From: a virus
Strand: one strand, 5' to 3'
DNA length: 44,686 bases
IMG/VR virus record: IMGVR_UViG_3300037585_004443
Span: 1 to 44,686 of that record
This document shows positions 11,416-31,836 of this stretch, one piece after another. The number at the start of each line of letters is the position of its first letter. Position 1 is the first letter of the stretch. A program made the translations under genes and the position numbers. The notes beneath the pieces were generated by a model. The model ran no database searches. It had not been told where the DNA came from and saw only the letters and a program-made list of their open reading frames with translations.

Positions 11416-13959
11416 TTATTTTATTGGATTTTCTTTATTTAAAAGATCTTTACCTAAACCGGTATTAGTTGGTTGTTGTGCTGCATTTACAGCTACCTTG
11501 GCATCTTTTTTCAAAATCTCTTCTTTTTCTTTCTCCATCTTTTTAATCTTAGCATCAGTCAAACCTGTTGGATATACAGTTCCGTCAAAAGTAAAATGTT
11601 TCATACCACTCTCTTCGGCTTTGTTCTTAGCCATTTTAAACCTTTGTTTCTTAAGTTCGTTTTGCTTCAATCTCATTATTTCTAATCTACCTTCTTCGTA
11701 TCCCATAGCTTTCCACCAAGCGTTCTCAATTCTATAAGTATAATATTCTTTTACTAAAGTTCTAAGTAATTTTATATCAAAGAAAGGATTGTCTACGTTA
11801 CAGATAGCATCGACAAGTTTTAACTTATCCATACCATCAAGGTTATCATGCCAATAATTTTTATCTCCAGGCCCAAGATCTGGTTGAAATTCCATACTTT
11901 CAAAATCAAATCCTCCGTAATTTAAATTCTTTATATTAGGATGCTCATACAAATGACGTCTAAAACTACTACCATCCTTAAGTAAATGTTCGTCCCAACA
12001 AAATTGTAAAACTAATCTGTCTTGTTGTTTAGTAGCCGTACCGTCATTACTTCCAAAGAATAAATCTATTTTATAATTAATTCCACCTAAATCAATTTTA
12101 ACCACAGCTTTACTTTCTCTAGCTTGAGCTGCCTTATCAGTATATGTCTTAATAAAACCAATGTATTCTATAGCTCTATTAGCGTTTACCCACCAAGCAT
12201 TTTTATTACCAGATATAACATTTATAAACCCATGCTCTCCATTAAAATCTTCAACAATTGCATAACAAGCATCTTCAACAATAGGGTCTCCATAAACATC
12301 TAATTGGCCTCTAGCAACATCTCCAGCTTCTGCGTGCATTATTGATAAATCTGGATTTTTACAATATATTTGAGTTGCGTAACTAAGCTGTTGTGGAGAT
12401 CCAGATTTAGATAAAAAACTATCTGGAGCAAAATGATTTTCAAAAAACGTTTGCGTTTCTTCTCTAAATCTAGTCATATCTGTTTTCAAACCAGCAAGCG
12501 TACTTTTGGATTCTTCTTGCGCTTCCATATCTTCGTTTTGAACGGCTTGATATAGCTCTTCTTGTAATTGTTTTAATTTCTTATATAAAGAATCCTTATA
12601 TTTATCAGAATTACCTATACCTTGAATTCCCGGAGCATGTATAACAGCGTTATCTCCTAATAATTCTTTTTGGTTATTTCTTAAAATTTGATCTTTAGCT
12701 TTTCTTGTTTGCATCGCCTCTGGCTCTATAGCTAAAGCTTCTTGTTGTATTTCTTCCCAGTTCTTTCTTCTAGCAGCTTCTGATAATATATCCATACCAG
12801 CAGACATCATCCCCTCGTTTTGCTGTTGTTGTTGCTGTCCTTGTGGCGATAATTGTTTTAATGGTGATGGTTTTATTTCTTTCATATCTATGTCTATTAA
12901 ATTATAATTTACAGTATAATAACCATTTCTAGTTCCAACAGCATCTTTCCTTCCTAGTTTTAATAAATCTTGAGCCATAGTTCCGCTCCAAGTTTTTGCT
13001 TTACCTTTGTAGTTAAAGTGGTATATTGGTATTCCTGAATTTGAATATTTTATTTTTATTATGTTTTCTTTTAATCTTTCGTCACTGAATAAGTTACCAA
13101 AGAATCCTTTATCTTTAGGTGCGTTTGCTTCGGCTCCTTGCGCTGTAATTTTACTCATTTGCATTTCCATTTGAGTTTTTTGCTTACCAATCTCTTGCTC
13201 AGAGCTCCACATATCACCTTCTCCTTTTAATTTTTGAACATCCATATCTCCCTGTGCTTCTGCCATTTGTAAGTTGGTAGCGTTTTGCGCTTCCGCCATT
13301 TGGAGTTTAGATGCTTCACCAAGTTTTGTGGCCTGTAATGCTTCATCAGCACCAAGTATCTTGTTCTGTATATCCATGTCTGCAGAACGTTTTTGAGAGT
13401 CAAGCCTTGATTGTTCTCCAGCAGTTTTTAAAGTTATATCTTGTTCGGCTTCAGCCGCTTTCTTTTGGTTCTCCGCTTCTTGAGCACCAATAGATGCTGA
13501 TGCTTTTTGAGCTTGTAATGAACCTTGATTAGCCATAGATTGTGCCAACGCAGCGATACCAGAGCCACCAGCAGATCCAGACATTTGAGCCATAATATTA
13601 GCTTGGTTCTGTTGATTTTGTTGAGCTTCAAATTCAGCTTGTTGAGTGTTAACGGTTAAATCTTCAAAGGCATTCTCCATGTCTTCAAACGCATTCTTTT
13701 GCCCTTCAAATGCGTTTTTCATTTTACCTGCATAAACGTTTTCAGCCCCTTCATAAACGTTGTCAAGATCAGCCATTTTATTATCTAAACCTGCAAATGC
13801 GTTTTGAGCATTTTCGTAAGGATTACTCGTGTCAATATCCATTAAGTCACTAGTCATATTATCTAGCGCTTTCATAGAGTTCTTCATGTCTTTCCCCGCG
13901 TTCTTTCGGTCTTCATTATCTCCAAAAGCCCAGTTTCCTAATTTTTTAAGCCATCCCAT
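11416..13959 (-). CDS. Tail/internal protein with central S74-type intramolecular chaperone domain
   Basis: An 847-residue protein. Residues about 48-101 carry a short NAFE-containing seven-residue repeat (NAFEGQK, NAFEDME, NAFEDL). Residues 102-280 are Ala/Gln/Met-rich and probably a long coiled coil. Residues about 291-357 match the peptidase S74 (endosialidase-type intramolecular chaperone) signature: FSDERLKENI, then a SGIPIYHFNYKG strand, then WSGTMAQDLL. Ser292 corresponds to the nucleophile that cuts these proteins just before the Ser. Usually this domain ends a fibre; here it is followed by a Gln run (about 370-377) and some 460 further residues with a Trp/Asp-rich region. The gene precedes the giant internal protein. 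A trimeric fibre-like or internal virion part is plausible. S74 recognition is good; the downstream domain is unknown. Confidence 0.85.
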   Translation of the reverse strand: MGWLKKLGNWAFGDNEDRKNAGKDMKNSMKALDNMTSDLMDIDTSNPYENAQNAFAGLDNKMADLDNVYEGAENVYAGKMKNAFEGQKNAFEDMENAFEDLTVNTQQAEFEAQQNQQNQANIMAQMSGSAGGSGIAALAQSMANQGSLQAQKASASIGAQEAENQKKAAEAEQDITLKTAGEQSRLDSQKRSADMDIQNKILGADEALQATKLGEASKLQMAEAQNATNLQMAEAQGDMDVQKLKGEGDMWSSEQEIGKQKTQMEMQMSKITAQGAEANAPKDKGFFGNLFSDERLKENIIKIKYSNSGIPIYHFNYKGKAKTWSGTMAQDLLKLGRKDAVGTRNGYYTVNYNLIDIDMKEIKPSPLKQLSPQGQQQQQQNEGMMSAGMDILSEAARRKNWEEIQQEALAIEPEAMQTRKAKDQILRNNQKELLGDNAVIHAPGIQGIGNSDKYKDSLYKKLKQLQEELYQAVQNEDMEAQEESKSTLAGLKTDMTRFREETQTFFENHFAPDSFLSKSGSPQQLSYATQIYCKNPDLSIMHAEAGDVARGQLDVYGDPIVEDACYAIVEDFNGEHGFINVISGNKNAWWVNANRAIEYIGFIKTYTDKAAQARESKAVVKIDLGGINYKIDLFFGSNDGTATKQQDRLVLQFCWDEHLLKDGSSFRRHLYEHPNIKNLNYGGFDFESMEFQPDLGPGDKNYWHDNLDGMDKLKLVDAICNVDNPFFDIKLLRTLVKEYYTYRIENAWWKAMGYEEGRLEIMRLKQNELKKQRFKMAKNKAEESGMKHFTFDGTVYPTGLTDAKIKKMEKEKEEILKKDAKVAVNAAQQPTNTGLGKDLLNKENPIK

Positions 13960-14004
13960 ATTGTATTGTATATTTGTTATTCATATTATTACACTTTTTA
14001 GCAA

Positions 14005-14391
14005 TTATTTACTACTAGGAGCATATTCAGTAGCTGCAGCGAACATTTCAGCTTCTTTTTTACTACCATTTCTAAATTCAGCTAAAGAGTAGTATCCTAA
14101 CAATCCAGAAGTATTAACTCTTCTATCTTTACTAAAAAATAAAAAGTCAGTGGTTTTCACTACCCATGGCGTATAATTAGTGTCATCTACAGTGATTCTT
14201 CTATTTCCATGATCAACCGCCGGGAAACCGCCTCCTGCCCTTATTGTACCAACAATTCTTGGTCTATTAGTACCAAAAGGATTATTAGTACCTGCTTGTG
14301 TTTCATTGTCTAAACTAGTCGCATATAAAATGTCTGTTTCTTGAATAGACACGTTTAAAGGTTCTGAAAATGTTATTTGATGTAATGCCAT
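14005..14391 (-). CDS. Small putative tail-associated structural protein
   Basis: A 128-residue protein starting MALHQITFSEPLNVSIQ. It looks beta-rich, with alternating hydrophobic and polar residues, a Gly-rich turn (RAGGGF) and a C-terminal LLGYYSLAEFRNGSKKEAE segment. It resembles small proteins I recall beside tail genes in marine phage contigs, where they are unannotated. It sits between two tail-associated genes, so a virion part or tail adaptor is likely. The leader before the ATG is A-rich (CTTAAAAACAAACT) with no Shine-Dalgarno sequence. No motif gives an activity. The gene call is solid; the role is inferred only from neighbours. Confidence 0.78.
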   Translation of the reverse strand: MALHQITFSEPLNVSIQETDILYATSLDNETQAGTNNPFGTNRPRIVGTIRAGGGFPAVDHGNRRITVDDTNYTPWVVKTTDFLFFSKDRRVNTSGLLGYYSLAEFRNGSKKEAEMFAAATEYAPSSK

Positions 14392-16078: not shown

Positions 16079-19000
16079 TTAACTAATATTTGTAATTAGT
16101 GATGGACGTCCTAATCCTTGTAACGAAAACTCTCCAGAATCTAAACTATCCTCTACACCAAAAGTTCCTAAACCTGTTATGTGATTAAACCATTTATTCT
16201 CTTTGCTTATAAACTCTTCAACTTTACCCTCTTGCATATCTGTTTCAATGTGCTGAACAAACCAACCTATTTTAGCCCAATTATCATAATATATTTCACC
16301 AAGCTCAGTTGGGTTATTACCTGCGTCAAAAATTCGATATTGATTATTTATATTTTGAAGAGTTTTTGCTTGAGATCCTTCATAGTCTAAAGTTTTAAAT
16401 CTTTTAACAGTTCCTTTGTCTCCATTAAATAAAACTTTAATCATTGAGTAATGCTTAGAATTATTATAAAAAACGTCTCTAGGGGTTGTAAACGTTATCT
16501 CAGTCCCAGCCGTAACTCTAACGTTATTGTTTAAGTTTAAAGTCCAAGTGTCACCATTATTATTTACCGCTTTAACTACTGTTGTATCTATAGGTATACC
16601 GTTACCCTCTACATACATATGCTCTGTTATAACTCCACCCGCGTTATCGTCTACTATAATTTGCATCCCATTAGAATTACCTGTAGCGGCTCTTGTTAAT
16701 TTTTGATCTAAAGAATGTCTCCATAACTCTCCTAAACCTTCATCATTTACATTATAACTTATACCCCAAGGATCCAAAACATCAACTCGAGAATATCTAT
16801 TATGAGGGAACGTGTAATAAGAATTTTTATGACTAATACCACCTTGAGTTATAAAACTTTTAAAACTCACCCATCCTTTTTTCTTTTCTGTATAACTAAC
16901 AGTATATGCTTTTGGTTTATCAGTACTTAAATCAACCGTATTTATAGTTAAATTATATTGATCATCTCTATTATCATAACTACCTATTAATTCTTTTGCG
17001 TTACGTAGATTGTCTTTAAACCAATCTTTCATACCTTGGTCTGATATAGGCGTTAAACCGTCTCTAGATAGTCTTAAAACAGCACCTCGATCTTTATCTG
17101 TAAAATAAACTCTATACGATTCAGAAGCGAATGATTCTGGATTTTTAGATATACCATATTCACCGGTAAATGGCATTGATTGTCCTAACACCATTGCGTT
17201 AGAGGTTATATTAGTGTTTCCATCCGCGTTATATAGCGCATCTTTTTTTGCTAATATTTTAAATACTTTGTTTTCACAGAAAGTAACTAAATCAGTATCT
17301 CTAGCAAATAGTTTTTGAATACTGCCATTTATAGGGTTTAAATCTTTAGTTATAGGTTCTGCTTGTATAAATTGATTTGTTTCGTTTATACCACTAGTAG
17401 AATTGTATATACCAGAAAATATTAACCCACTTGATCTTCTTTCTTCTTCATACGGAGTTGCTAAAGGCATAGACGCTTTAACACCTTTGTCTACTGTAAT
17501 AGCGTTATAATCATCTCTAACTCTATTACTTTCAACTCCATTGTTATAACCCCAACAATTAAAGTAACCTAATCCTACTTCGTTATTATGTGTTAAGGGT
17601 CTTACTTTATAACTAGTTGGTGATATAGAATGTAGAATTTCAAACTTCATATACTCTTCATCATTTCCAACACCGTAGTAAGTACCTTCCCCACGCCAAG
17701 TTACTTTGATCACATCTCCACTGCTTAATTCTACCATCTTTACATCACCAGCATCACTATATATATTGAAAGAACTACCCGTGTTTGAATCCGTAGGGGT
17801 TAACCAAATAGTATTACCCTGTACAGCGCAAACAATAGGTTGGCTAAGGCTAAGAGAAGTGGGATTATCAGGGTCAGGACTTGGATTTGCAGAACTTACA
17901 AGAGTAACTTGAGAACCAACTTTTATAACTTCTTCTCCTCTGTTAGAGTAATCATACCAATCAGCTCCATGCATGTCCCAACCTACGTCCAAACTAGTTA
18001 ATGTTTCAGGGTTTTCTCTATATCTTTCTAAATTTATAGGATAAGAAGGGGATGCCGCGTAATAAATGTCTAAACCAACATCTTCTAAAGGTTCTGTTTC
18101 CCAAATAGCCGGATTAGTACTCATAGGTCTATCTCTATCTTCACCTTTATATGGTGTTACAATTTCAATTTCAGTTTGATTCAATCCTCTCTCGTGAAGT
18201 CCAATATAAGCAAATGGATTTCTTGAGTAAAAATTATCAGCATCATTGAGATCCATATATTCAGGTTGAGTATAAGCGGCTCCATCAGCACTTCCATTAG
18301 GCTTTTTTGAACCAGTATCTCCCCCGGTTGTATTCCAACCACTATTAGATGCGTCTCCACCGGTAATATCACTCCAAATAGGAGGAGAACCAACGTTCCA
18401 CGTGTTATTCCGTGTAGTATTCCAATAACTAGATAAATTGTAATACTCAATATGATTACCACCTGACGAACCGAAAAATATAGTTCCCCCTTTCTCAGGT
18501 GTTACGTGCGCGAAACTTGTTGAATAAATAGCTCTACCAAGTTCTATATTTGATTTATACATAGGTACTCCATCTACCTCTACAGGTTCTACGTGATTAT
18601 ACAAGGGGTGAAAGCGATGCTCTCCTTGCGATCCAATTATTTTATCTAAAGTTAAAGTCCATCTAATCCTTTTATTGCTTGGATGACTACCTGTCATATC
18701 ATATTGCTCAGCATCACTAAATAAATCAGATATATAAGCTCTACCACCAGTTAATGGCCCAGCTTTAGTTCCCATACTAGGCGCGGGAGAATTCCAACCA
18801 ATTCCACTACCACCACTTATAACACCGTTATCATCTTCTATACCCCAAGCTCCTTGAGGCGCCTCATAATTATAAACATCATTTTCCTTTGTATTCGTAA
18901 TTGTATAAACAATTTGATCGGGATCATATTTAAATCTAAATTGAGTTCCAGGAGTTCTTAAAGCTTGAGCAAAACCATGTTCATTATCATTAAATTGCTT

Positions 19001-22000
19001 CATTGTCTCCCCAAAAGCACTGTGGTGTCTAGCCTCTAATCCTAACGTGTCTGCTCTACCAACACCCCAGAAAGATATATCCATATATCCTGTTCCTGTT
19101 GTTTCATTCGCCCATATACCATTACCAGAATAACCCTGTGCTGCGCCAACTTTATCAATAATCCATCTTTGTGGGCTATGCTTGGCAAACGGCCAACTCT
19201 CATGTACACCATCTCTTCCGAGCCACAAACCATACCAATCTTCTCTTAATTTTTCAAAAGTACCGGCGTTCCACGTGTGATCTCCCCCGTAACTTGTTGC
19301 TACCCCATTATAATCATGGTGTCCTGGATAACTCGTATTTGCTTCATTACTTCCACAACCCGTACAAGTTCCTCTAAAAAAATCTTCTTGATTCCCCCAT
19401 ATCGCAGGTATTTGCGTAGGATTAGCTCCTTGTAAATAATTATTTTCATTATGACTAGTTGTAATTCCAGAGTGTTGAATGCCAGAACCACTTATTCCAC
19501 CAGGATTTAAAGCGGGCGCTCCAGTTAATTCTATAATATCGTGGTCAGTTATATTATTTTGAACTCTATTTGCATAAGGCCCATCTGCCGATATTGCCCA
19601 ATCAAATGTATCGGTTTCATATTTTAAATATGGACTATATTTTTCAGGACCAAAACTCGGCCAATCTCTTTGTTTACCTTCTAAACTAAACTCTAAATCT
19701 GCGTTTGTTGTAGGAGTAAAGCCCAAAGGCCCAACAACATCACCAATATTTACCCCAGTATTTAACGGTGGATTACCACCAACCCCAGGATCATCTGCCA
19801 ACCTATAACTTGGCCATATTAATTTATCACCAGCAACCCATTTTTTTAAATTTTTAAAATGTGGAAGAGTTGGATCTCCCCAAATAGCATCGTCAAAAGC
19901 TCCAACTGCTGCTGGCCCAGGACCAATAGGCCACATTACTTTGTCTCTATGGTATATAGAAGCATACATACTAGCCCCGTCTGGAGCTTCTTCAACTTGT
20001 CCTAATGGATTTATATAACTAGCACCTGTTCCAGCATGAGCATAACTTAAACTACTAACAATTCTAGGATCTGGATGGGTATAATTATCAACATTGTAAA
20101 GTGTTTCGTTTATACCACTACTAAACCCATTACCCCACGTGTTTCCATATTTAAAATTCTGTTGAGGAGGAACTTCTATTCTTTGAACAATACCAACAGG
20201 TATAAAGTTAGGTATATTGTTTGTATCGTGTATTCTACCCTGGAAGTCTATCAACTTTTTAGACCAATCTTGCATACCTGGATGAGCTGCGCAAATATAT
20301 TTTAATTTTCTAGAAAATAAAACTTGATATTTATCTTCGGTATCTAATTGTGGTTGTACGATGTTTAGTTCAACATTAGCATCTCTGAGTATTTTAACAA
20401 AGAATCTACCTTCGAATTGTGATTTATCTCTAACAATTTTTGTTCTACATTCTATCGACAAACCTCTAGCTAAAGATAAATTATCATCTGGCTCACAAAA
20501 TAGCGCATCGTTACCAAAAGCTTTTTCTAAAGAAACTCTTACTAATTGCTCTTGCTGTCCAGGTGTTTCTACTAGTTGAGTGGTTTCTATAAGAGTAGTA
20601 GGATCTGTTGTTGTAATTTGTTGTGTTTGAGGTGGAGAACCAATATATGTTATACTAGCTATATCATACCAATGGGTTTTATTTGTGGTATCACTAGTAG
20701 CGGCATTATAAGCAGACGCCTGACCGACACTTTGTACTACGCGTATTTGCGCGCCTGACATACTAGTCAATTCGTTGAATGAAGATTGATCCCAATACTC
20801 TGCAAATATATCTAAATACATTCTATTAGGTAAAGGTAATCCAGTGTTATAAAACATACCAGAATCCCAAGAACCTAAATCTGACCATCCTGGTGGTGGT
20901 AACATCATAGGTAAACTACCCCAATATTTATTCTCAGTTTTAATAAAAGTAGGAGCATCATTCTTTAAAGATAATATTTTATACGTAGTATCAAAATCAG
21001 TGAATACATCTGTATCATGTTGCTTTTTTAATATTAAATTTGTTCTTTCTGTAATTTTATTTCTTTCAGAAGAAGGAAATGATAACCATACTCCTCCGTC
21101 TTCTGCATCAAACCAACGATCCATTGATAAATTGTAGTATTCGTTTGAAGTTTCTTTAATATAAAAAGTATATGATTCAGCCCAATTAGGTGGTGCGTTT
21201 TCCAGTTTTACACTTAATCTATTTTGAAGTTTAGCAGAACTTTTAGGTATTTTTATAGAACCAGACTCAGAAGTCATAACTGGTGTTTCTCTACCATATT
21301 TATCTCTATAAACAACACCAAGTTGATACGTACGCATAGATTTAAGAGATTTACCAGGTTGACCAGGGTAAGGAGTTTCAGAACCTGTAGAATAATCTCT
21401 AGAATTAATACTAGGTATAAAGTGAGCTTTTACTTCTTTATTTTCTTTATCTTTAAGATCATAGTTTTGAACGTAATTAGCAAAAATTAATCTATTAGCT
21501 GTAACTTCTTGCGCTAAAGCTCTTTTAGGAACATTGTCCCAAGGTCTTAGCATTTGATTACTTTTAACAACTTTATGTATTAACTCAGATGTTATTCTAT
21601 AATAACCACCATGTCCACCACTACCTGATGTTTCCCAATAATTTAACCCACTATTATTAGGTCCATTTCCTTCTATTGGATCCTTTTTCTTGTGACTACT
21701 TACAGTATATATGTTTGGTGAATTTGATTCTTTATATAGTATGTCTACTTGTATAACATCTTTAGGAATATTTTTTGGAACCCAATTGGTTATATTTAAA
21801 CTTCTTAATCTATTTTGCATTCCAAGATTATAACCTTTTTTAGGTAAATAATCAAATTGTCCAGGAATAAACGCTATCTCAGACCAAGGAGCAAAAACTG
21901 AATACTCTCCATCTGCATACTTATATCTGTAAGAAAACTTTGGGAATTTAATTTCAAATATTGGTGGTGATTGTACGAGTTTTACTGTATATAAATCTTC

Positions 22001-22927
22001 ATCTGTAATATTTCCTTGTGGAAAATTACCAGTTATACTTACTAACTTTGCTACAATATGCGTTTCTGCCCAGAATTGACCCCAACCGAGCGCGCTACCA
22101 GCGGCTGGATAATATCCCCAACCTCTTTCACCAGCCCACGGGGTCATTGGGAATTCTACTGGATCAAACGTGTTACCAAATTGATCTACAGGCAACCATC
22201 CGTCAGCGGCTAATATTTCTATTGTTAATCTAGCTGTAGCTCTTCTTATACTACCAAAACTATCAGCATATTCGTGTTCTATTATAATATCGTCTCCTAC
22301 CTTCCAATCTTCTTCAGTTCTAGCTATATCAATTGGAATTTTTATACTATCACCTGGAGAAACTAATTCTTTATTTGCTTTATAAAACATACTAATATCT
22401 TGTCTATCAAAAGCAGTACCATTAGTATTATAGTGACCATCTGGATCTCCCCAATAATTACCAGTATCAAACTCACTTGGAGCATCTACCCCTATTGGAT
22501 TGTGAAAATTGTCAACATTAGCGTAATTACTAGATTGATGCATTCTACTACCAAGAAAGCTTGCGTGAATAACTGCGTCATCTGTTATTCCAGCGGTTTC
22601 ATTAATATCAGATCTTGACTTTACGCTTCCATCCGGCATTAATACTTCTTGTTCGTAAGCATGCATTTCTAGTCGCGGAGCCATTGTAGGTCCGTTTCTA
22701 ATAACAGTTATATGCTTTTCTAAAGCAAATACAGGTCTAGTTATTTCATTATGACTTTCGCAATCGTCAATATAATAATCTCTATTGCTTACACTAAGAA
22801 CAGATTGCCCATCTAAAGAAGTATAATATGACAATCCTGACAAGGCTAAACCTTGCGCATTACCAAAGTTTGAAGCGAGTTCTGATGAATGAATAGGATA
22901 TCCAAATTGACCGATAGTTAATGACAT
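16079..22927 (-). CDS. Tail nozzle/stabilisation-type protein, C-terminal part of a split gene
   Basis: A 2282-residue protein. Residues about 70-110 contain LEKHITVIRNGP, which in my recollection of related phage proteins directly follows the FWTDN...EPKKINIERS segment now found in the upstream gene. Later blades carry typical phrases: NPAIWETEP (about 1590), then RSSGLIFSGIYN, LARGLSIECRT, and KNPESFASESYRVYFTDKDR (about 1990). GSYDNRDDQYNLTI follows. The C-terminus ends in LQGLGRPSLI. Such repeated blades suit the beta-propeller nozzle or stabilisation proteins of short-tailed phages. A Gly/Asn/Trp/His-rich region (about 930-1480) may be an elaborated surface insertion. The ATG follows six AAT codons and lies in the same frame as the upstream gene. 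Role as tail tip/nozzle is inferred with moderate confidence. Confidence 0.8.
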   Translation of the reverse strand: MSLTIGQFGYPIHSSELASNFGNAQGLALSGLSYYTSLDGQSVLSVSNRDYYIDDCESHNEITRPVFALEKHITVIRNGPTMAPRLEMHAYEQEVLMPDGSVKSRSDINETAGITDDAVIHASFLGSRMHQSSNYANVDNFHNPIGVDAPSEFDTGNYWGDPDGHYNTNGTAFDRQDISMFYKANKELVSPGDSIKIPIDIARTEEDWKVGDDIIIEHEYADSFGSIRRATARLTIEILAADGWLPVDQFGNTFDPVEFPMTPWAGERGWGYYPAAGSALGWGQFWAETHIVAKLVSITGNFPQGNITDEDLYTVKLVQSPPIFEIKFPKFSYRYKYADGEYSVFAPWSEIAFIPGQFDYLPKKGYNLGMQNRLRSLNITNWVPKNIPKDVIQVDILYKESNSPNIYTVSSHKKKDPIEGNGPNNSGLNYWETSGSGGHGGYYRITSELIHKVVKSNQMLRPWDNVPKRALAQEVTANRLIFANYVQNYDLKDKENKEVKAHFIPSINSRDYSTGSETPYPGQPGKSLKSMRTYQLGVVYRDKYGRETPVMTSESGSIKIPKSSAKLQNRLSVKLENAPPNWAESYTFYIKETSNEYYNLSMDRWFDAEDGGVWLSFPSSERNKITERTNLILKKQHDTDVFTDFDTTYKILSLKNDAPTFIKTENKYWGSLPMMLPPPGWSDLGSWDSGMFYNTGLPLPNRMYLDIFAEYWDQSSFNELTSMSGAQIRVVQSVGQASAYNAATSDTTNKTHWYDIASITYIGSPPQTQQITTTDPTTLIETTQLVETPGQQEQLVRVSLEKAFGNDALFCEPDDNLSLARGLSIECRTKIVRDKSQFEGRFFVKILRDANVELNIVQPQLDTEDKYQVLFSRKLKYICAAHPGMQDWSKKLIDFQGRIHDTNNIPNFIPVGIVQRIEVPPQQNFKYGNTWGNGFSSGINETLYNVDNYTHPDPRIVSSLSYAHAGTGASYINPLGQVEEAPDGASMYASIYHRDKVMWPIGPGPAAVGAFDDAIWGDPTLPHFKNLKKWVAGDKLIWPSYRLADDPGVGGNPPLNTGVNIGDVVGPLGFTPTTNADLEFSLEGKQRDWPSFGPEKYSPYLKYETDTFDWAISADGPYANRVQNNITDHDIIELTGAPALNPGGISGSGIQHSGITTSHNENNYLQGANPTQIPAIWGNQEDFFRGTCTGCGSNEANTSYPGHHDYNGVATSYGGDHTWNAGTFEKLREDWYGLWLGRDGVHESWPFAKHSPQRWIIDKVGAAQGYSGNGIWANETTGTGYMDISFWGVGRADTLGLEARHHSAFGETMKQFNDNEHGFAQALRTPGTQFRFKYDPDQIVYTITNTKENDVYNYEAPQGAWGIEDDNGVISGGSGIGWNSPAPSMGTKAGPLTGGRAYISDLFSDAEQYDMTGSHPSNKRIRWTLTLDKIIGSQGEHRFHPLYNHVEPVEVDGVPMYKSNIELGRAIYSTSFAHVTPEKGGTIFFGSSGGNHIEYYNLSSYWNTTRNNTWNVGSPPIWSDITGGDASNSGWNTTGGDTGSKKPNGSADGAAYTQPEYMDLNDADNFYSRNPFAYIGLHERGLNQTEIEIVTPYKGEDRDRPMSTNPAIWETEPLEDVGLDIYYAASPSYPINLERYRENPETLTSLDVGWDMHGADWYDYSNRGEEVIKVGSQVTLVSSANPSPDPDNPTSLSLSQPIVCAVQGNTIWLTPTDSNTGSSFNIYSDAGDVKMVELSSGDVIKVTWRGEGTYYGVGNDEEYMKFEILHSISPTSYKVRPLTHNNEVGLGYFNCWGYNNGVESNRVRDDYNAITVDKGVKASMPLATPYEEERRSSGLIFSGIYNSTSGINETNQFIQAEPITKDLNPINGSIQKLFARDTDLVTFCENKVFKILAKKDALYNADGNTNITSNAMVLGQSMPFTGEYGISKNPESFASESYRVYFTDKDRGAVLRLSRDGLTPISDQGMKDWFKDNLRNAKELIGSYDNRDDQYNLTINTVDLSTDKPKAYTVSYTEKKKGWVSFKSFITQGGISHKNSYYTFPHNRYSRVDVLDPWGISYNVNDEGLGELWRHSLDQKLTRAATGNSNGMQIIVDDNAGGVITEHMYVEGNGIPIDTTVVKAVNNNGDTWTLNLNNNVRVTAGTEITFTTPRDVFYNNSKHYSMIKVLFNGDKGTVKRFKTLDYEGSQAKTLQNINNQYRIFDAGNNPTELGEIYYDNWAKIGWFVQHIETDMQEGKVEEFISKENKWFNHITGLGTFGVEDSLDSGEFSLQGLGRPSLITNIS

Positions 22928-22945
22928 ATTATTATTATTATTATT
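22928..22945 (-). repeat. Six tandem AAT codons between two in-frame reading frames
   Basis: On the minus strand, the six AAT triplets (plus strand ATT x6) come directly before the ATG of the 2282-residue tail gene. The upstream gene's TAG and a second stop TAA are in the same frame, followed by TTA and AAC. A triplet tract can change length by slippage without shifting frame. It also gives an A-rich leader of the kind used for translation start in Bacteroidota. Confidence 0.9.
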
Positions 22946-22954
22946 GTTTAATTA

Positions 22955-25900
22955 CTAAGTCCCAGAACATTCTCCACAGTGTGTATAACTAGAAGTTGCT
23001 TGACCTGGCTCTTGAGTGTATGAGTTGGTTTGGACATATAGAGTGCCCCAGGCGTTCGTAGCAATTGAACCGCCTGTTCCAGTTGGTCCGGGCATTTGAC
23101 TAGGAAAATCGATACAATAACCCCTATAAGTACCATTTAATAGAGTATTTGCAAAATCAGGATTCCCTGTGGTATACACGTCTGTTGGAGTATTATTTGG
23201 ATATGCCGCGGTGTTATGAGCATCAATTATAGCTCCTGTTTGAGTTACTCCATTTACAGGAACTTCAGATGCATGAAGACCCCATGTTTGATTTGCTGGC
23301 CACCAGTGAGCACCCCAAAGAGCATACCAGAAATATGGATAAGCTTGACTACATCCAGGATGTGGATTGTTTGGACCAATAGGACCATTACCATTAGATG
23401 AGTTTGGTGGGTTAGTATAATCGAACTCAGCGTAATCTGTAGTTTGTGTCACTCCACCAACAACAGTTTGACCAGCACCTTTAGCTGTATATGCAGGGAG
23501 TACGAAAGGGGTGGTATTAGCGGGTCCACCACTCGCAAACGTATGATCCGCACAACATCCAGGATAATAACATGGATCTGTACCTTGATTATAATTATAT
23601 GCTCCAGGATCTTGACAAGGTGGAACGGCAGGGGCGGCACAGTTACTAGTACAGTAAGTTTCTATGCCAGCCTTATTTGTTGCCATATCTGAAGGGCCGT
23701 AAGTACCATAATAAGCAGAGGTATTTGTTAGTGAATTTACAGCGGGGTTCCCAAAATCATTCCCATGAGCTGCGATGCCACCCGGATTAGAGGTACAACT
23801 ACCATTATCACAATATGAACTCCAATCTCTACAACCAGCAACAGTACTGTTGTTAATATCAGATTCACAATACGTTTGAGCGTCTGCGTAACTATAAGTA
23901 GTAGCACCCGCGTCAGTATAACCACCAGTACCACTTGAGTTCAAAACACATCCAATATTTCCAGCAGAAATTACACAATCATATGTATCAGGAATTACTC
24001 CATTATAACAACCACCACTAGGGATAGTTGTAGAAGTTTGACAAGCATTTAGTGCCGCTGTTCCGGTTGTATAACTTATACCATCTACAACAAAATCACC
24101 ACTACCAGCTCCTGGATCAGAACAAGCTCCTAAGCCAGCACCATTACATGTATAACTTTCAAACTCACAACTATTACTAGCCCCATCACAATCCCATTGC
24201 GTCCAGTAACAATCATTAATATTATTAGTAGCGGTTATACAAGCATTCCAAGAACCAGAGCGACATTGTGGACCACCATCACACCAATACGCGTCCATGC
24301 TTTTACAATTGGAGTTCGTTATGCAATCAGTAAAGCCACTATACTGTCCACCTGGTGTTGGTATACATCCTTGGTGTGGATCACAATCGTATTCCGTAGT
24401 ACCATTAGAACAAGCCGCGTGGCAAGTAATTGGATTAGTATATTGACCATTTCCAGTTCCTGGATTAATACAATTCCCATTTCCATCACAATCCCATGAA
24501 GATCGTATATTACACCAAGTATTACAAGCACCAGCTGATGTATAAGCGCCCGTACCACTCATATTCTGCGAGCAAATTCCATTACCATCACAATCCCATG
24601 TTTCTGGAATAACAACACAATCAAGTTCACACTGTGTTAATCCTCCGTTTGTAGAATTATAAAACCCATTTCCTGTTCCAGGATCATAACAAGAACCAGC
24701 ATTACTACCTGACACATCGCAATCCCAAGATGGTATTACAAATGGAGAGCAATGATTTTGACATATACTCATCGAAGCAAACGCTCCGTTACCAGTTCCT
24801 GGATCAAAACAGGTACCATTAATACAATCAAATGATGGTTCTACACAATTATCTACACAATTTTGGAGTGAAGTAAAACCTCCAGGATAACTAGGTGTAC
24901 CTCCAAAAATTTCAACACAATTATAATATGGATCACAATCCCACGTTTGATCATAAGTACAACTACCATCATCAATCGTTGCATTTATGTTATAATTATT
25001 TGCATTTGAATCCGTACAACCTGCACACGAAACATAATCACAAGTACCATCATCTGTAGTAACATTATCACCACAAGGAACAGTTGAGGTTGGATTTATT
25101 GTTGTAGCGCAATCATGGTTACAAGCCAAAGGATCTGTACATCCAGGTATTCCTTCACAACTACCGTTATCAACCGTTGCCAAAGGGTTATAGTTTGAAT
25201 ACATAGGATCCGTGCAGCCTTCGAGTTCATACTCACAACATTCGTTACTACCTGGACCATCACAATTCCCAATTATAATGGCATCATTATTTAAATCAGT
25301 TCCATTATCACAACCCATAAGAGTTGCATCACAAGGACAACCAGCATTAGGATCATAGTTGTTAGCTAAAATATCCATACATCCATACACAGGAGCAGTA
25401 GCACAGCACCCAGTAGTTTGTAAAGTTAAATTAGCAGTTTCACAATCAAGTTCGGATGGCCAAGTTAGCTTTCTACCACCAGGAGCGACCTCTATACATT
25501 CACATGGATCTTCTGTATTTACTATCCAAACTGTATCATAAGTACAACTACCATCGTCTATAGTTGCATTTGGATCTAGGTTATTTGCAGCTGGATCTGT
25601 ACATCCTTCTAAACACCCAACATACACGCATCCAAACATTTCAGTTCCCGCGGCAAAGGTATATCCGCTCGGAGTAGTAATTGAATCTTCTAAAATATCT
25701 CCTTGCACAGAGCAACATGCGTTTGGATCAAAGTTACACGCGCCACTACCATGATTTATAACTAAATTATTAGTTGGATCAGGTGTATCAAAACCACAAG
25801 CATGCCAAGGACTAGATAACCCATCGCAGTTTGTCGGGCACATAGCGTTGTTAGTATCTGCTGTAGCTTGATCAACTACGCACCAACCATCATCTATACA

Positions 25901-27028
25901 CCCAGTAATATAACAACAACTACCATCGTTAAAAGTTGCCTCTGGATCGTAAGTACAAGAATTCACATCAGTACAACCTTCGTATCTATAAACGCAACAA
26001 CTCCATCCCGGATCACTTGGGGAATTAGGTGATATATAACTATTGTCGTAAATATCTGCTCCAGAACAATCATAATCGGATTTTGCATCGTAGTTAATAG
26101 CTGATGGATCCGTACAACCTTGAGCACTAAAACAACCTGATTCATCTAAAATTGTATCTACTGGATTTGCATCCTCTACAACTAAAAGCGTGTGTTGGTT
26201 AAAGTCATCTATTTTTTTAGTACCCCTACCTATATTCCACTTTCCACTATCACACCCATCTTTACTTCTTTCTATATTTATTTTTTTAGGTTCAGATACG
26301 TTATCTGTCCAAAAAATCATATCGTCAACTACATTGATACCAGTTATACTTCTTAGTTTTTGACCCCCACCTGTGTTTCCAAAATTTAAATTTCTATCAC
26401 CAAGAAAAGTGATAGATTGACCTTGTGAATAATTTATGGTTTTATTTAATGTTATTTTTTTATCTACGTCGGAATAATCAACTTCTACAACAGTGGCATC
26501 AGTACCCTCAACCCTCATTCCCCATCTAACTTGATTAGCGTTTCTCGTGATGGAAATAGTAGAAGTAGTAGAAGTACCTTGTTCCTGACAATCCTCTTCA
26601 TAAGTTTGAACGTTAGAGTGAACCTTAAAAATATCAACAAAAACAGCGTGTTCTTTTTCGTCCCAAGGATCGTGTATTTTTTTACTAGTATCAAACTCTA
26701 GTATTCTATCCATCCAAATTCCTTGATCTGGAGAGGCTGTATGAACAAATCTATAAAGCATATTTGTTTGGGGATTTACAATAGCTGCAACATGATAATT
26801 TGCTCCAAAATACTCTTCTCCTCCTTCCCCATTTACATAACTTCGGTGCTGAATAACTTCTGTAACTTTAGTATTACCTAATATATTTTGAGCGGCACCA
26901 ACATCAGAATCTTCTGAGGTAGCGATGCTTATGTTTAAAGCTTCTCTATATAATCCATTTTGAACAATTCTTTCATCGGTGTCTTTATCCATCTTACCAC
27001 CGGTAAAAGTACGTTTTAATTCAGCCAT
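22955..27028 (-). CDS. Tail nozzle N-terminal part fused to a large Cys-rich repeat array
   Basis: A 1357-residue protein. Residues 1-285 look like the start of a marine-phage tail nozzle/stabilisation protein: AELKRTFTGGKMDKDTDERI, GLYREALNI, DVGAAQNILGNTKV, then DDMIFWTDNVSEPKKINIE near 235-250. From residue 304 the nozzle sequence gives way to Cys-rich repeats: about eight GCTDPxAxNY...DDGSC-like units (304-694), about ten WDCDGxGxC...PGTGNG units (695 to about 1129), and a last degenerate GxxDPGAYNY unit. The final 200 residues are Gly/Asn/Thr/aromatic-rich. It ends TAG TAA, in frame with the next gene. Similar Cys repeats occur in surface proteins of Flavobacteriia. An adhesive arm held by disulfides or metal is plausible. 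The N-terminal recognition is from memory of related proteins. Confidence 0.85.
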   Translation of the reverse strand: MAELKRTFTGGKMDKDTDERIVQNGLYREALNISIATSEDSDVGAAQNILGNTKVTEVIQHRSYVNGEGGEEYFGANYHVAAIVNPQTNMLYRFVHTASPDQGIWMDRILEFDTSKKIHDPWDEKEHAVFVDIFKVHSNVQTYEEDCQEQGTSTTSTISITRNANQVRWGMRVEGTDATVVEVDYSDVDKKITLNKTINYSQGQSITFLGDRNLNFGNTGGGQKLRSITGINVVDDMIFWTDNVSEPKKINIERSKDGCDSGKWNIGRGTKKIDDFNQHTLLVVEDANPVDTILDESGCFSAQGCTDPSAINYDAKSDYDCSGADIYDNSYISPNSPSDPGWSCCVYRYEGCTDVNSCTYDPEATFNDGSCCYITGCIDDGWCVVDQATADTNNAMCPTNCDGLSSPWHACGFDTPDPTNNLVINHGSGACNFDPNACCSVQGDILEDSITTPSGYTFAAGTEMFGCVYVGCLEGCTDPAANNLDPNATIDDGSCTYDTVWIVNTEDPCECIEVAPGGRKLTWPSELDCETANLTLQTTGCCATAPVYGCMDILANNYDPNAGCPCDATLMGCDNGTDLNNDAIIIGNCDGPGSNECCEYELEGCTDPMYSNYNPLATVDNGSCEGIPGCTDPLACNHDCATTINPTSTVPCGDNVTTDDGTCDYVSCAGCTDSNANNYNINATIDDGSCTYDQTWDCDPYYNCVEIFGGTPSYPGGFTSLQNCVDNCVEPSFDCINGTCFDPGTGNGAFASMSICQNHCSPFVIPSWDCDVSGSNAGSCYDPGTGNGFYNSTNGGLTQCELDCVVIPETWDCDGNGICSQNMSGTGAYTSAGACNTWCNIRSSWDCDGNGNCINPGTGNGQYTNPITCHAACSNGTTEYDCDPHQGCIPTPGGQYSGFTDCITNSNCKSMDAYWCDGGPQCRSGSWNACITATNNINDCYWTQWDCDGASNSCEFESYTCNGAGLGACSDPGAGSGDFVVDGISYTTGTAALNACQTSTTIPSGGCYNGVIPDTYDCVISAGNIGCVLNSSGTGGYTDAGATTYSYADAQTYCESDINNSTVAGCRDWSSYCDNGSCTSNPGGIAAHGNDFGNPAVNSLTNTSAYYGTYGPSDMATNKAGIETYCTSNCAAPAVPPCQDPGAYNYNQGTDPCYYPGCCADHTFASGGPANTTPFVLPAYTAKGAGQTVVGGVTQTTDYAEFDYTNPPNSSNGNGPIGPNNPHPGCSQAYPYFWYALWGAHWWPANQTWGLHASEVPVNGVTQTGAIIDAHNTAAYPNNTPTDVYTTGNPDFANTLLNGTYRGYCIDFPSQMPGPTGTGGSIATNAWGTLYVQTNSYTQEPGQATSSYTHCGECSGT
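23640..24946 (-). repeat. Protein-level tandem repeat, type B (WDCDGxGxC...PGTGNG), about ten units
   Basis: Within the 1357-residue tail protein, residues about 695-1129 repeat a 30-50 residue unit. The core is [ST]WDCDGNGxC, then a PGTGNGxY-type turn, then C-x3-C (or close variants). Clear copies start at TWDCDPYYNC, SFDCINGTC, SWDCDVSG, TWDCDGNGIC, SWDCDGNGNC and YDCDPHQGC. Later copies grow longer and more diverged. Four Cys per unit suggest two disulfides each. At the DNA level the copies recur as related but non-identical sequence, so the array is old rather than a recent slippage product. I do not recognise a named family. Confidence 0.85.
24947..26119 (-). repeat. Protein-level tandem repeat, type A (GCTDPxAxNY...DDGSC), about eight units
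   Basis: Residues 304-694 of the tail protein contain about eight units beginning GCTDPSAINY, GCTDVNSCTY, GCIDDGWC, GCLEGCTDPAANN, GCMDILANNY, GCTDPMYSNY, GCTDPLACNH and GCTDSNANNY. Most close with [DN][DN]GSC or DDGTC. Several units carry long Cys-rich insertions, so spacing is irregular. The Asp/Asn-rich loops look suited to Ca2+ binding. This unit is widespread in secreted proteins of marine Flavobacteriia, which supports both the host guess and possible transfer from host to phage. Confidence 0.88.
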
Positions 27029-27031
27029 TTA

Positions 27032-28465
27032 CTAATGTTTAATCCATTTTGATTTACCCCTGAATACCTGAGATATTTCTTCGATTTTAATATTTGATAA
27101 TCTTAACTTTGCTTTTCTAGTTTCAGCAGCTTTTTCTTTTTTGAATCTAGCTATAGTACCAGGGTCAACGTCTGATCTAGCTTGAGCACACCCATAAGCT
27201 ATCCATTTATATGCTGCTTCTTCAGCTAACTTAGGAATTATTTGTTCATATTCAGTACCATGCCCATCACTAATATATTTTAGTGTGATAGTTTTACCAG
27301 CCAATGCTGAACCAAAGTGTATATTTCCACGTAAGTAATCAATAAAATAACTTCCGTTAGCTTGAGCGTGCTCTGGTTCTAAACCATATCTTTCCCCTGT
27401 ATTTGTAAAATAATTACTATTATCTATTGCTGGATTTAATGTATCTGTAACTCCAACTGTAGTTCCTGATGCTCCAGAATAACTATCCCAAGTATTTGAA
27501 AAAAACGTGCAAGTTTCACTAAACGATCCTTCTAATAAAGGAAAACTTAATTCATCAAGAAATTTATCTACCATGTGTACATTAATCTGTGCTTGAGGAC
27601 TATTTCCTAAAGTACCAACAAATATTGTATTATCAAGATCCCAACTATGATTATTCATGCCAGAAAAAGGAGGTCCTTCCCAACCCCCAATCAATGGTAT
27701 GCCTATAAAGTTATATTGCTGAAATCGATTTTCGAATTTCCATTTCATAGGTTTTCCACAAGAAAACGACTCATCTCCAGTGTAAGTTCTAGCACATTCA
27801 CAATAATCATCTATAAGTTGTGAAATATACATATATAAATGGTATGGCTTATCAAACGTAACGGTTTCGTGAGTACCGAACTCGTTTTCACCTATAGAAA
27901 TTGGGTATTGGTGATCATCTAAATAGTTTTTGGAATTTGTTCCTAAACAAGCTTTCAACCACGCCTGCATGGTGTCTGGATTACACTCTGTTACGGTTGA
28001 AGCTACACAAGTTGATTGGTGTTTTAATTCACCACTTTCCATATCATAACCACACCCATCTGATTGATTTATCGAAAATGGATTACTAGTATTCCTAGCT
28101 GGATAAAGCACGTGCTCAATACCATTACTATCTAATGAAGTTAGCTTTACATAATTAACATAATCGTGAGGAAGTGGCATTTTAAGCGAAGGACACACTT
28201 CTATTTCTTGAGATTTTACAGACCTTAAAGTATCATAAGATAATTCTTGTAATGCTCTATGTGCGTGGAAATTTACGTCAGATCTTGTGACACTAGCTAA
28301 TATTTTATTCGTACCTGTATAAGCAGCTATAAAGTTATCAACTATTTCAGTTAAATATATATAACCATATTCTCCAAAATTAGTTGGATTAGTATTATAG
28401 TAAGTATTGTGGGAAGTTGCCCCACCTCCACCAATCGCGTTTGTAAGAGGATTCCAATTTGCCAT
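27032..28465 (-). CDS. Connector/tail-ring type structural protein
   Basis: A 477-residue protein between the smaller connector candidate and the nozzle-like protein, in the place where short-tailed phages encode ring, adaptor or tail-tube proteins. The N-terminal half includes YIYLTEIVDNFIAAYTG and a ...FHAHRALQELSYDTLRSVK helix; the phrase LPHDYVNYVKLTSLDSNG (about 120-137) is a strand-rich turn. The C-terminus is basic and helical (FKKEKAAETRKAKLRLSNIKI), likely reaching into the neighbouring ring. I recall similar proteins in marine phage genomes, annotated only as structural. Assignment to a specific ring is not possible by eye. Virion role is well supported by position, the exact role less so. 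Confidence 0.82.
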   Translation of the reverse strand: MANWNPLTNAIGGGGATSHNTYYNTNPTNFGEYGYIYLTEIVDNFIAAYTGTNKILASVTRSDVNFHAHRALQELSYDTLRSVKSQEIEVCPSLKMPLPHDYVNYVKLTSLDSNGIEHVLYPARNTSNPFSINQSDGCGYDMESGELKHQSTCVASTVTECNPDTMQAWLKACLGTNSKNYLDDHQYPISIGENEFGTHETVTFDKPYHLYMYISQLIDDYCECARTYTGDESFSCGKPMKWKFENRFQQYNFIGIPLIGGWEGPPFSGMNNHSWDLDNTIFVGTLGNSPQAQINVHMVDKFLDELSFPLLEGSFSETCTFFSNTWDSYSGASGTTVGVTDTLNPAIDNSNYFTNTGERYGLEPEHAQANGSYFIDYLRGNIHFGSALAGKTITLKYISDGHGTEYEQIIPKLAEEAAYKWIAYGCAQARSDVDPGTIARFKKEKAAETRKAKLRLSNIKIEEISQVFRGKSKWIKH

Positions 28466-28467
28466 AA

Positions 28468-29193
28468 TTATTTATTTTGTTGTTGTTCGTTTTGAGCTTC
28501 TTCTCTTGCTCCTGCTTGATAAAGTTCCTGATCTTCCATTGATATACCAGCTAATTTTAATATTTTAGACACTAAATCTGGTAATTCTGATTCGTGTAAA
28601 GCAAAGTTATTACTTGCTGCAGGATCATAAACAGGTTTTTCATTTATTACTACATATCCCCAAGACGCTAATCCAGGAAAACCTCTGATTTCTTCGTAAG
28701 TTATTAAGTTAGGACCTGTCATTTCTCCGGTACCACTAAAAACTCGTATATAACTATACCCATCTTCAAAATAAACAAAGTTATCAAATCCTTGTCTATG
28801 CCATCTAGAAGCAATAGTATCATAAATTTCATCTATATCTTCTATTTGTGTTAGAGTTCTAGGAGTTCCATTATCATCACAAAATATTTTACCAGTAAAA
28901 TTTATAGGATTAATTAAGTATCCTCTACCACCCACGTACGTAGCTGTTGCTTCGTCAATTGTAACTCCTGCTGTGTTTTGTATTTTAAATAATATGTGAT
29001 TTAAACTATCTCCTAATTCTCTTTTTAACGGTCCCGCTTCTCTTACGGCATCTAAATCATATAGATATTGTTCGAATATATCTTGTTGAGCCTGGGTAGC
29101 AATCAAGTTGAATTCTTGAGGTGTTAGATAACCTCTTTGCTCTTTATTAGCTAAAGTCTGTACTGTTTGATATACCGCATCTACATTTATCAT
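28468..29193 (-). CDS. Head-tail connector/ring candidate
   Basis: A 241-residue protein starting MINVDAVYQTVQTLANKEQR, followed by GYLTPQEFNLIATQAQQDIF. This helical N-terminus, with a predicted coiled arm and the LTPQEFNLIATQAQ segment, is the standard start of an unnamed family next to capsid genes in marine phages. A beta-rich centre and a C-terminal helix ending in a Gln/Asn-rich tail (EEAQNEQQQNK) follow. The next gene, at 28465, starts after two bases, so the pair is likely made in step. By position between capsid and tail-nozzle genes, it should be a head-completion or ring protein. Ring identity is inferred. Confidence 0.8.
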   Translation of the reverse strand: MINVDAVYQTVQTLANKEQRGYLTPQEFNLIATQAQQDIFEQYLYDLDAVREAGPLKRELGDSLNHILFKIQNTAGVTIDEATATYVGGRGYLINPINFTGKIFCDDNGTPRTLTQIEDIDEIYDTIASRWHRQGFDNFVYFEDGYSYIRVFSGTGEMTGPNLITYEEIRGFPGLASWGYVVINEKPVYDPAASNNFALHESELPDLVSKILKLAGISMEDQELYQAGAREEAQNEQQQNK

Positions 29194-30348: not shown

Positions 30349-31836
30349 CTACTTCATTAACATGAAATTGTTAGCACCTTGTGTAACTAAACATCTTTCT
30401 GATAACATATGGATTTGCATCGCGTCAAGTGCAGATGTAGCAGCACCAACCGAACCAGTAACCCAAGTTTTTAACTTTCTATCATCAGTTTTAGAAGCTC
30501 TATAACGAACGTGTAAGAAAGGACGTTTAAGGTTCTTTCCTAATTGTTGGTCATAAACAGTTGAAGTTCCAGCTGGAATCATAACTCCTCTAATTGCGCC
30601 AGCACTATAAGCAGCGTTAATACCACCTCTAGTAGCTTTGTCGTTTAAGTATCTCATATCTGATTTGTAGAAATCATAAGAACCACGTCTAAAACCAGAG
30701 AAACCTAAATTAAGCGCCATATCTTCTGAGTTGTTAAATACTCCATAAGAAGTACCACCAGCTCCATAAGAATTCATAGAAGCTAACATGTCATCCATTG
30801 CTAACGAAGTAGCTCTATTAACGAACATCATATTTTCTTCAATAGCACCTTGAGAGTCAAATTCAGCTAAAATAGCATCAAATTCAGCTAAATCAGTAGC
30901 CGCGTTAACGCCAGTAATACCAGAAGTTAAATTACCTCTAGCAGTGATAGCAGCGAATAAACCTTCAGTACCAACAGTATTAGCACCATCCGCACCGTAA
31001 ATAAAGTCTTCAACAGCATTTGCACTTGCGTCAAGACGATCGATTTCACCTTCTAACATTGCCATTTCTAAGTAATCAGTAAAACGTGCTCTTGTGTCAG
31101 CCTCAGCTTTTAAGTACCATAAGTAACCTGATCCACCTTCTTCAGAAGTAGTTTCAACCCAACCAACTCTAGCTGTATCAGAACCTGATACTTCGTAGTA
31201 GTCTTTTAATATAATTGGTTTGTTGCTAAAAGTTTTGAAATCTGGTTCATTAGCACCTCTTGATTCTACTGTAGCAGAAGCACCTTTTTGGTTATAACCA
31301 ACACCTTTCGCATATTCAGAACCATAAACTAATATAGTAGTTGCTTGTTCAGCAGTATTTCCTGAAGTTGGTATTGTAGTTGCATCGTAAGTTTTAACAG
31401 TAATATCAGCTCTGTTAGAACCATCAATAGCTGTTACCATACCTTTGTAAACACCAGTAGGTGCAGCTACGATAACTGTATCATTTAATCTAACACCGTG
31501 AGTAGTCATACCAGTTAATGCATAACCATTTCCATCTATATCAGATTGAATAGTTATAACGTGATCAGCATCGATAACACATTTGTAAGATAAGTGTAAA
31601 CGACCTTGCTCAGACCAAACAACTTGATCAGCTTGCATCGCTTCTTCAGCTCCTACTTGTGAAAGAAATCCAGATATAGTCCTAGGACCAAATACCTCTG
31701 CTTCTTTCTCCATAAGATCTGGTAAATATTGTTGAGCCCAACCCATGTCTGTGTTGAAGTCTAGGTAATTTGTAACTAGTGTTTGTTGCACTGGTGCTGG
31801 AACACTATTCAAACTACCCCCTGGAGTAATTGCCAT
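30349..31836 (-). CDS. Major capsid protein
   Basis: A 495-residue protein positioned after portal and scaffold, the usual place for the major capsid protein, and closed by a strong terminator, as expected for the most abundant product. The N-terminus (MAITPGGSLNSV, then LVTNYLDFNTDMGWAQQYLP) has a long N-arm and helix; the phrase ...FLSQVGAEEAMQADQVVWSE follows. A middle beta-rich insertion (about residues 85-170, with VRLNDTVIVAAPTGVYKG) could be a surface domain. MMFVNRATSLAMDDMLASM and a SYDFYKSDMRYLNDKATRGG stretch are typical of major capsid proteins I recall from marine phages. An HK97-like fold is likely but not proven. The ATG follows an A-rich leader (AAAAAAAATAAATT). Confidence 0.88.
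   Translation of the reverse strand: MAITPGGSLNSVPAPVQQTLVTNYLDFNTDMGWAQQYLPDLMEKEAEVFGPRTISGFLSQVGAEEAMQADQVVWSEQGRLHLSYKCVIDADHVITIQSDIDGNGYALTGMTTHGVRLNDTVIVAAPTGVYKGMVTAIDGSNRADITVKTYDATTIPTSGNTAEQATTILVYGSEYAKGVGYNQKGASATVESRGANEPDFKTFSNKPIILKDYYEVSGSDTARVGWVETTSEEGGSGYLWYLKAEADTRARFTDYLEMAMLEGEIDRLDASANAVEDFIYGADGANTVGTEGLFAAITARGNLTSGITGVNAATDLAEFDAILAEFDSQGAIEENMMFVNRATSLAMDDMLASMNSYGAGGTSYGVFNNSEDMALNLGFSGFRRGSYDFYKSDMRYLNDKATRGGINAAYSAGAIRGVMIPAGTSTVYDQQLGKNLKRPFLHVRYRASKTDDRKLKTWVTGSVGAATSALDAMQIHMLSERCLVTQGANNFMLMK

Follow-up and report, generated by a model that had tools for sequence, protein, structure and literature searches.

Crassviruses plug their tail with a gate, the muzzle, which is a hallmark protein of the order Crassvirales. 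In phage PhicrAss001 the muzzle is a single chain (gp44; PDB 7qok, 7qol; Pfam PF25731 crAss_MUZ and PF25729 crAss_MUZ_C) in which domain IG1 (163-292) sits between propeller blades 2 and 3, and whose propeller and ring-joining domains are similar to those of gp12, the nozzle of phage T7 (PMC10172136). Undivided homologues of the muzzle studied here were found by tblastn in Cellulophaga phage phi38:1 (gp97, 1324 amino acids, aa) and in the Flavobacterium elemo phages (1493 aa). The T7 nozzle also consists of one chain, and has no crass domain. Here we describe IMG/VR virus record IMGVR_UViG_3300037585_004443, in which the muzzle is encoded not as a single polypeptide but by two genes. The whole 44.7-kb record (44,686 nucleotides, nt; possibly a fragment) was analyzed and is referred to as the window.

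The window resembles PhicrAss001 in the fold of an undivided relative and in the probable order of parts – blades 1-2, an insert of Ig and crass domains, the remaining blades and a C-terminal domain. However, PhicrAss001 gp44 is one chain, whereas the window encodes two, with a cysteine-rich tail of 1064 residues on the first. The muzzles of phi38:1 and the elemo phages belong to the same family and have the same neighbors (tblastn identity ~32-37% over core blocks), but are undivided and without the cysteine array. Phage phi18:3 has, like the window, a two-gene muzzle (gp114 and gp115), the first piece of which also ends in an extra stretch; its cut lies before the C-terminal domain (C/Z) rather than after blade 2, and in its relatives, unlike in the window, the second piece often stands one or several genes farther on. 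Propellers completed in trans by a blade of another chain occur in Sec13-Nup145C and Seh1-Nup85, which are unrelated proteins and involve no gene fission. Literature searches brought up no relevant account of a split muzzle or nozzle gene.

Two genes encode one muzzle

The two genes and their parts, in order of translation, are as follows (coordinates refer to the window).

22955..27028 (-): chain 1 gene, 1357 aa, N-terminal muzzle module plus Cys-rich tail (PHROG 14478 match; weak match to Pfam crAss_MUZ)
26153..27028 (-): N-terminal muzzle module, chain 1 residues 1-292, predicted blades 1-2 with a small barrel inserted at ~131-211 (AlphaFold model)
26255..26350 (-): motif ITGINVVDDMIFWTDNVSEPKKINIERS (N2), the final shared block ahead of the cut (sequence and alignment)
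22958..26149 (-): Cys-rich tail of chain 1, 93 Cys in 1064 aa (sequence; BLAST)
22928..22957 (-): junction TAG TAA TTA AAC (AAT)6, then ATG (read from sequence)
16079..22927 (-): chain 2 gene, 2282 aa, Ig, crass and remaining propeller part of the muzzle (PHROG 14478 match)
22733..22927 (-): new leader of chain 2, residues 1-65 (comparison with relatives)
22658..22732 (-): VFALEKHITVIRNGP block (H), where ancestral sequence resumes (sequence and alignment)
21692..21958 (-): FEIKFPKFSYRYKYADGEYSVFAPWSE block (F), by position the start of the Ig-like region (alignment; domain order from PMC10172136)
16934..17440 (-): C-core (LIFSGIYNSTSG...GISKNPESFAS...), later propeller blades (alignment, fold comparison)
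16103..16387 (-): C-terminal muzzle domain (Z block; Pfam crAss_MUZ_C in undivided relatives)

The open reading frames (ORFs), their lengths, the common frame that they share and the sequence of the junction are exactly those reported by the first-pass annotation. Chain 1 carries FWTDNVSEPKKINIERS at residues 239-255, and family sequence resumes with LEKHITVIRNGP at chain 2 residue 69; chain 2 terminates directly after FSLQGLG, without a Cys array. The junction is a double stop followed by an AT-rich leader resembling other gene starts of the genome. An intein or self-splicing intron at the break was considered and rejected: only 27 nt separate the first stop codon from the chain 2 ATG, flanked by the Cys tail and the leader, and the Pfam, PHROG and NCBIfam matches of both proteins include no intein, intron or homing endonuclease family.

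Both ORFs match PHROG 14478 (1474 positions): chain 1 at positions 1-95 (E 3e-16), and chain 2 with E 2e-107 and its best stretch at positions 900-1138. That both match adjacent parts of one family is, unlike their common frame, beyond chance. The match of chain 1 to Pfam crAss_MUZ falls below the cut-off (17.1 bits against 27, E 0.0015), and chain 2 matches none of the Pfam muzzle models; among undivided relatives, crAss_MUZ_C scores above its cut-off in L006, L004, phi38:1 and L007, and crAss_MUZ does so in L007. Judged by sequence, the window is thus a divergent muzzle member at profile level, whose membership rests on PHROG and on its relatives. A search of NCBIfam gave nothing useful.

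A fold model (AlphaFold) was obtained for L007, an undivided and nearly complete relative of 1122 aa (mean pLDDT 59). The best Foldseek match in the PDB was the PhicrAss001 muzzle (7qok_A/7qol_P; E 1e-15 to 2.8e-15, prob 1.0), the next-best reaching only 4e-4; VIA-align likewise placed the PhicrAss001 muzzle first (Z 20.9 over 518 residues), followed at Z ~15 by tail proteins of SU10, Carin 1, LME-1 and A4 and by propellers. Since PDB sequence searches with two muzzle profiles returned no match, it is the fold search and Pfam that support the link to PhicrAss001. The two ORFs are two parts of one Crassvirales muzzle protein. Chain 1 had at first been taken to begin like a nozzle or stabilization protein; that name gives way to muzzle, a protein whose propeller and ring-joining domains resemble those of the T7 nozzle.

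The neighboring genes – terminase, portal, capsid and connectors, followed by the muzzle – have a crAss-like order, which is the same in L008, L009 and L011.

35519-37735: terminase (phrog_6681)
33111-35516: portal (by position)
30349-31836: capsid-type gene (phrog_13704)
28468-29193 and 27032-28465: connector-type genes

Undivided relatives and a loop with inserts

The first-pass annotation had supposed a single ancestral gene, in which HITVI-type sequence follows FWTDN-type sequence. This is borne out by 136 undivided ORFs that hold both motifs, FWTDN..EPKKINI and then HITVI, separated by a linker with a median of 33.5 residues (90th percentile 64). Because these relatives join both motifs, the two parts were once one gene; together with the PHROG 14478 matches, they show that the two chains correspond to adjacent parts of the undivided family.

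Three undivided sisters, L026, L267 and L268, are close relatives of the window and carry, exactly at the site of the cut, 257 to ~620 inserted residues that include Cys repeats of the same GCTDPxAxNYxPxATxDDGSC type. The order proposed at the outset, array first and cut second, is supported by these genes. Short loop, loop with insert and loop with cut form a natural series that documents, with unusual completeness, the fission of a gene for part of a large assembly.

Inserts at this loop are of more than one kind: undivided L118, L077, L085 and L104 carry unrelated inserts of 122-206 residues, that of L118 also being flanked by cysteines.

Position of the cut in the fold

Single propellers align with residues ~50-890 of the L007 model, that is, with both chain ends, and the propeller is therefore built from both chain ends. 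The module of the window was modeled separately (AlphaFold, chain 1 residues 1-293, alignment of 87 sequences, mean pLDDT 81.7): its residues 55-256 align in VIA-align with ~100-111 residues, or roughly two blades, of beta-propellers at Z ~6, which alone is not decisive, and Foldseek with this module alone gave no significant match. Directly after the chain 1 module come the blocks HITVI and YRYKY, which lie at the start of chain 2. Read against the PhicrAss001 structure, chain 1 would correspond to blades 1-2, and chain 2 to the Ig and crass domains and the remaining blades; the order of blocks and the published ranges place the cut at what would be the outer edge of blade 2, just ahead of the Ig region.

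Conservation and history of the cut

All five nearest relatives by C-core (79-88% identity to the first sequence of the query profile) are cut at the same site, and a scan with the chain 1 module added eight further cut phages, giving 14 distinct phages with the window included. The gene is thus truly cut in two, as had been noted, although the cut is not an event of this genome but common to at least 14 phages. When the 5' part of chain 2 served as the query, no close relatives turned up.

Comparison of these phages bears on the meaning of the shared frame. Chain 2 is offset from chain 1 by +0 in five phages, by +1 in four and by +2 in five, so that the common frame of the window is uninformative by itself; junctions range from a TAATG stop/start overlap (one relative) to ~27 nt, and leaders of chain 2 are unconserved except for C-x-P directly ahead of HITVI (T-R-P in the window). 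A single fused protein, arising if ribosomes read through TAG TAA or slip on (AAT)6, would be consistent with the in-frame ORFs of the window, but it is a highly improbable product: it would have to pass two consecutive stops, the second gene is in another frame in nine of the 14 phages, and neither the junctions nor the leaders are alike. TAG is moreover an ordinary stop (4 of the 24 main genes checked in the window end in it) and the window has no tRNA genes, hence no suppressor tRNA, so there is no hint of recoding. The frame offsets and the double stop led us to reject both mechanisms.

The possibility that the break is a pseudogene or an assembly error was also considered, because frameshift-type breaks do occur in the family, as in Maribacter phage Panino and in L135. 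Those breaks look different: the sequence simply runs on in another frame. The present cut, by comparison, is found in 14 distinct phages from many samples, with long intact frames and a proper start. For the L091-L092 pair (that is, L251/L253) dN/dS is 0.19 in the chain 1 module and 0.15 in chain 2, which indicates purifying selection; values for more distant pairs approach saturation and are less reliable. With 13 relatives and the dN/dS values of the measured pairs against it, this explanation was rejected as the least probable of those weighed. Panino, L135 and probably L223 were left out of the true cuts. In Panino (L010 8352-8463; PP540027) the annotated split of the muzzle into CDS0075 and CDS0074 is a frameshift, maybe a sequencing error. 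In L223 (7995-13796) the muzzle lies in several consecutive pieces, frameshift-like, and there was no match in Rfam.

In trees, 17 cut or insert-bearing genes form one clade (supports are FastTree values; IQ-TREE was also used). L268+L026 and L262+L266 lie near its base, their grouping being unresolved (0.50), and undivided L267 (10001-19645 (+)), with its very long insert, nests with L265 and L263 (0.94-1.0). By its placement among cut lineages, L267 points to a possible re-fusion or to more than one cut: one cut with two re-fusions, and several cuts in an insert-bearing lineage, both fit, and the tree leaves the number unfixed. The nesting of L267, which means that fusion may occur, and the node joining L262/L266 to L026/L268 could also be taken to favor an ancestral two-gene state, with the long single gene as the fusion. 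We regard this as very improbable, because 145 of 167 window-like muzzles are undivided, as are those of phi38:1, the elemo phages and PhicrAss001, on all sides of the cut clade. In the same sample (near-identical sequences removed; enriched by design for the clade of the window), 12 muzzles have the present cut, these being the ones that reach the C-core, six are cut between C-core and C-terminal domain, three are cut elsewhere, and a fourth (L135) has a frameshift.

Cysteine-rich tails

The tail of chain 1 (residues 294-1357) has eight GC[TMI]D starts, followed by WDC..C..PGTG.G..C..C units. By BLAST it resembles arrays that relatives carry at the C-terminus of chain 2 or of an undivided muzzle; the low-complexity filter and composition correction were off, and E-values are therefore inflated. 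The repeats matched no Pfam or NCBIfam family, and by analogy and position we take them to be putative disulfide-rich surface domains at the tail tip. Such tails are a roaming accessory of the family: they are most often C-terminal on the undivided gene and are not unique to the cut-site loop. Among cut phages they are found on chain 1 in the window, L259, L262, L263 and L265, on chain 2 in L251, L269 and mostly L253, and on both chains in L257 and L258; the contigs of L254, L255, L256 and L266 break off before chain 2 is complete. A general move of the array from C-terminus to loop was discarded, given the two phages with tails on both chains. In L194 a gene (12429-14351 (+)) with a stretch like the Cys-rich array of the window lies between two muzzle pieces.

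The size of the tail raises the question of whether chain 1 still belongs to the muzzle. If it had left to become a separate surface protein with a Cys-rich domain, and chain 2 alone formed a muzzle with an incomplete propeller, one could understand that 1064 of the 1357 residues of chain 1 are tail, and that chain 2 has gained its own leader. We consider this unlikely: in L254, L251 and L253 chain 1 (322-382 aa) amounts to little more than the blade module, purifying selection acts on it in the L251/L253 pair, the N-module is 48-77% identical across the clade with invariant motifs that are the same as in undivided genes, and where the flanking cysteine on one side of the cut has been lost, so has that on the other.

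Cysteines flanking the cut

Most clade members have a cysteine (A1) in chain 1, ~35-70 residues past EPKKINI, as in HTVLVVKEDVRYDC, and one (B2) in chain 2 directly ahead of HITVI, as in ICRPHFLLEK. The corresponding residues of the window are:

26153..26155 (-): Thr292 of chain 1, at the A1 position (alignment, covariation)
22739..22741 (-): Thr63 of chain 2, at the B2 position (alignment, covariation)

Both cysteines are present in 14 of the 17 genes and neither in three; no gene has a single one. The losses (T/T in the window, E/R in L256, L/S in L263) are on separate branches, and among the 33 Cys-bearing column pairs between the two parts A1/B2 is the sole pair with an identical variable pattern (simple probability 1/680, the pattern having been noticed after looking and 33 pairs compared). 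Control cysteines beside the cut, A2 and B1, do not covary. An A1-B2 disulfide in the relatives is, from this pattern, about an even prospect or a little better; it would staple the base of the inserted loop in the undivided sisters and bond one chain to the other where the gene is cut. Disulfides are found elsewhere in the tail of PhicrAss001 (PMC10172136). The window has lost the pair, so its halves must hold by non-covalent contacts.

Cuts at other loops

In the phi13:2/phi18:3-like group most muzzles (46 of 68, one being the Panino frameshift) are cut ahead of the C-terminal domain. In Cellulophaga phage phi18:3 both gp114 and gp115, the latter carrying the Z domain, are annotated as virion proteins from tandem mass spectrometry (MS/MS), which makes them a direct precedent for a two-chain muzzle, at another cut. 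In L009 (8010-13577) and L171-L250, which are of this group, the C-terminal muzzle domain (crAss_MUZ_C-like) normally has a gene of its own, of ~250 aa, which in some cases stands one or several genes farther downstream.

Proposed assembly of the muzzle from two chains

We infer the following history and assembly. The loop between blade 2 and the first Ig domain, which would be solvent-exposed, first gained an insert bearing Cys-rich repeats, within which a stop codon and a new start later appeared, leaving two adjacent genes. Both chains would be made from these neighboring genes and would fold and dock during tail assembly. In the presumed hexameric muzzle, chain 1 would give blades 1-2 of a seven-bladed propeller and dock on chain 2, so that the ring is closed across two chains, and the new free C-terminus of chain 1 would carry a large, probably exposed, Cys-rich surface domain, like those at the C-terminal end of the undivided protein of relatives. 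The one cysteine per chain that flanks the cut probably forms a disulfide across it in most relatives.

A split Crassvirales muzzle with docking of both chains is likely, and indirect evidence makes it very probable that the halves reassemble in the virion of this phage. Several points weigh against it. The covariation of A1 and B2 is suggestive: it rests on three losses and is marginal once corrected for 33 pairs, and the window itself is without the pair. The two-chain muzzle of the clade is reconstructed here from genes and models. The L007 fold model has a low mean confidence (pLDDT 59) and is that of a relative rather than of the window, and the cut was placed between blade 2 and IG1 from published ranges and strand order, not by a residue-by-residue structural alignment.

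For the clade as a whole, we lean slightly toward a marine crassvirus lineage with a two-chain propeller, usually disulfide-stapled across the old loop, in which the freed C-terminus serves for the exchange of Cys-rich surface domains, the same tail protein being cut at several loops in other lineages. Such a clade would be a natural split-protein design, marking where the muzzle tolerates free ends and large surface domains. Automatic annotation will overlook halves of this hallmark gene: the chains of the window are below the Pfam muzzle cut-offs.

Other genes of the window

The gene at 11416-13959 (-) encodes an 847-aa protein (PHROG 6121) whose Peptidase_S74-type endosialidase chaperone domain lies mid-protein (residues 292-334) and not at the C-terminus. 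The 3070-aa product of 2202-11414 (-) has no Pfam match; it contains a HAD-like stretch (VLDFDDTLATTKS), has two Cys/His knuckles at its C-terminus and is perhaps an ejected cargo protein.

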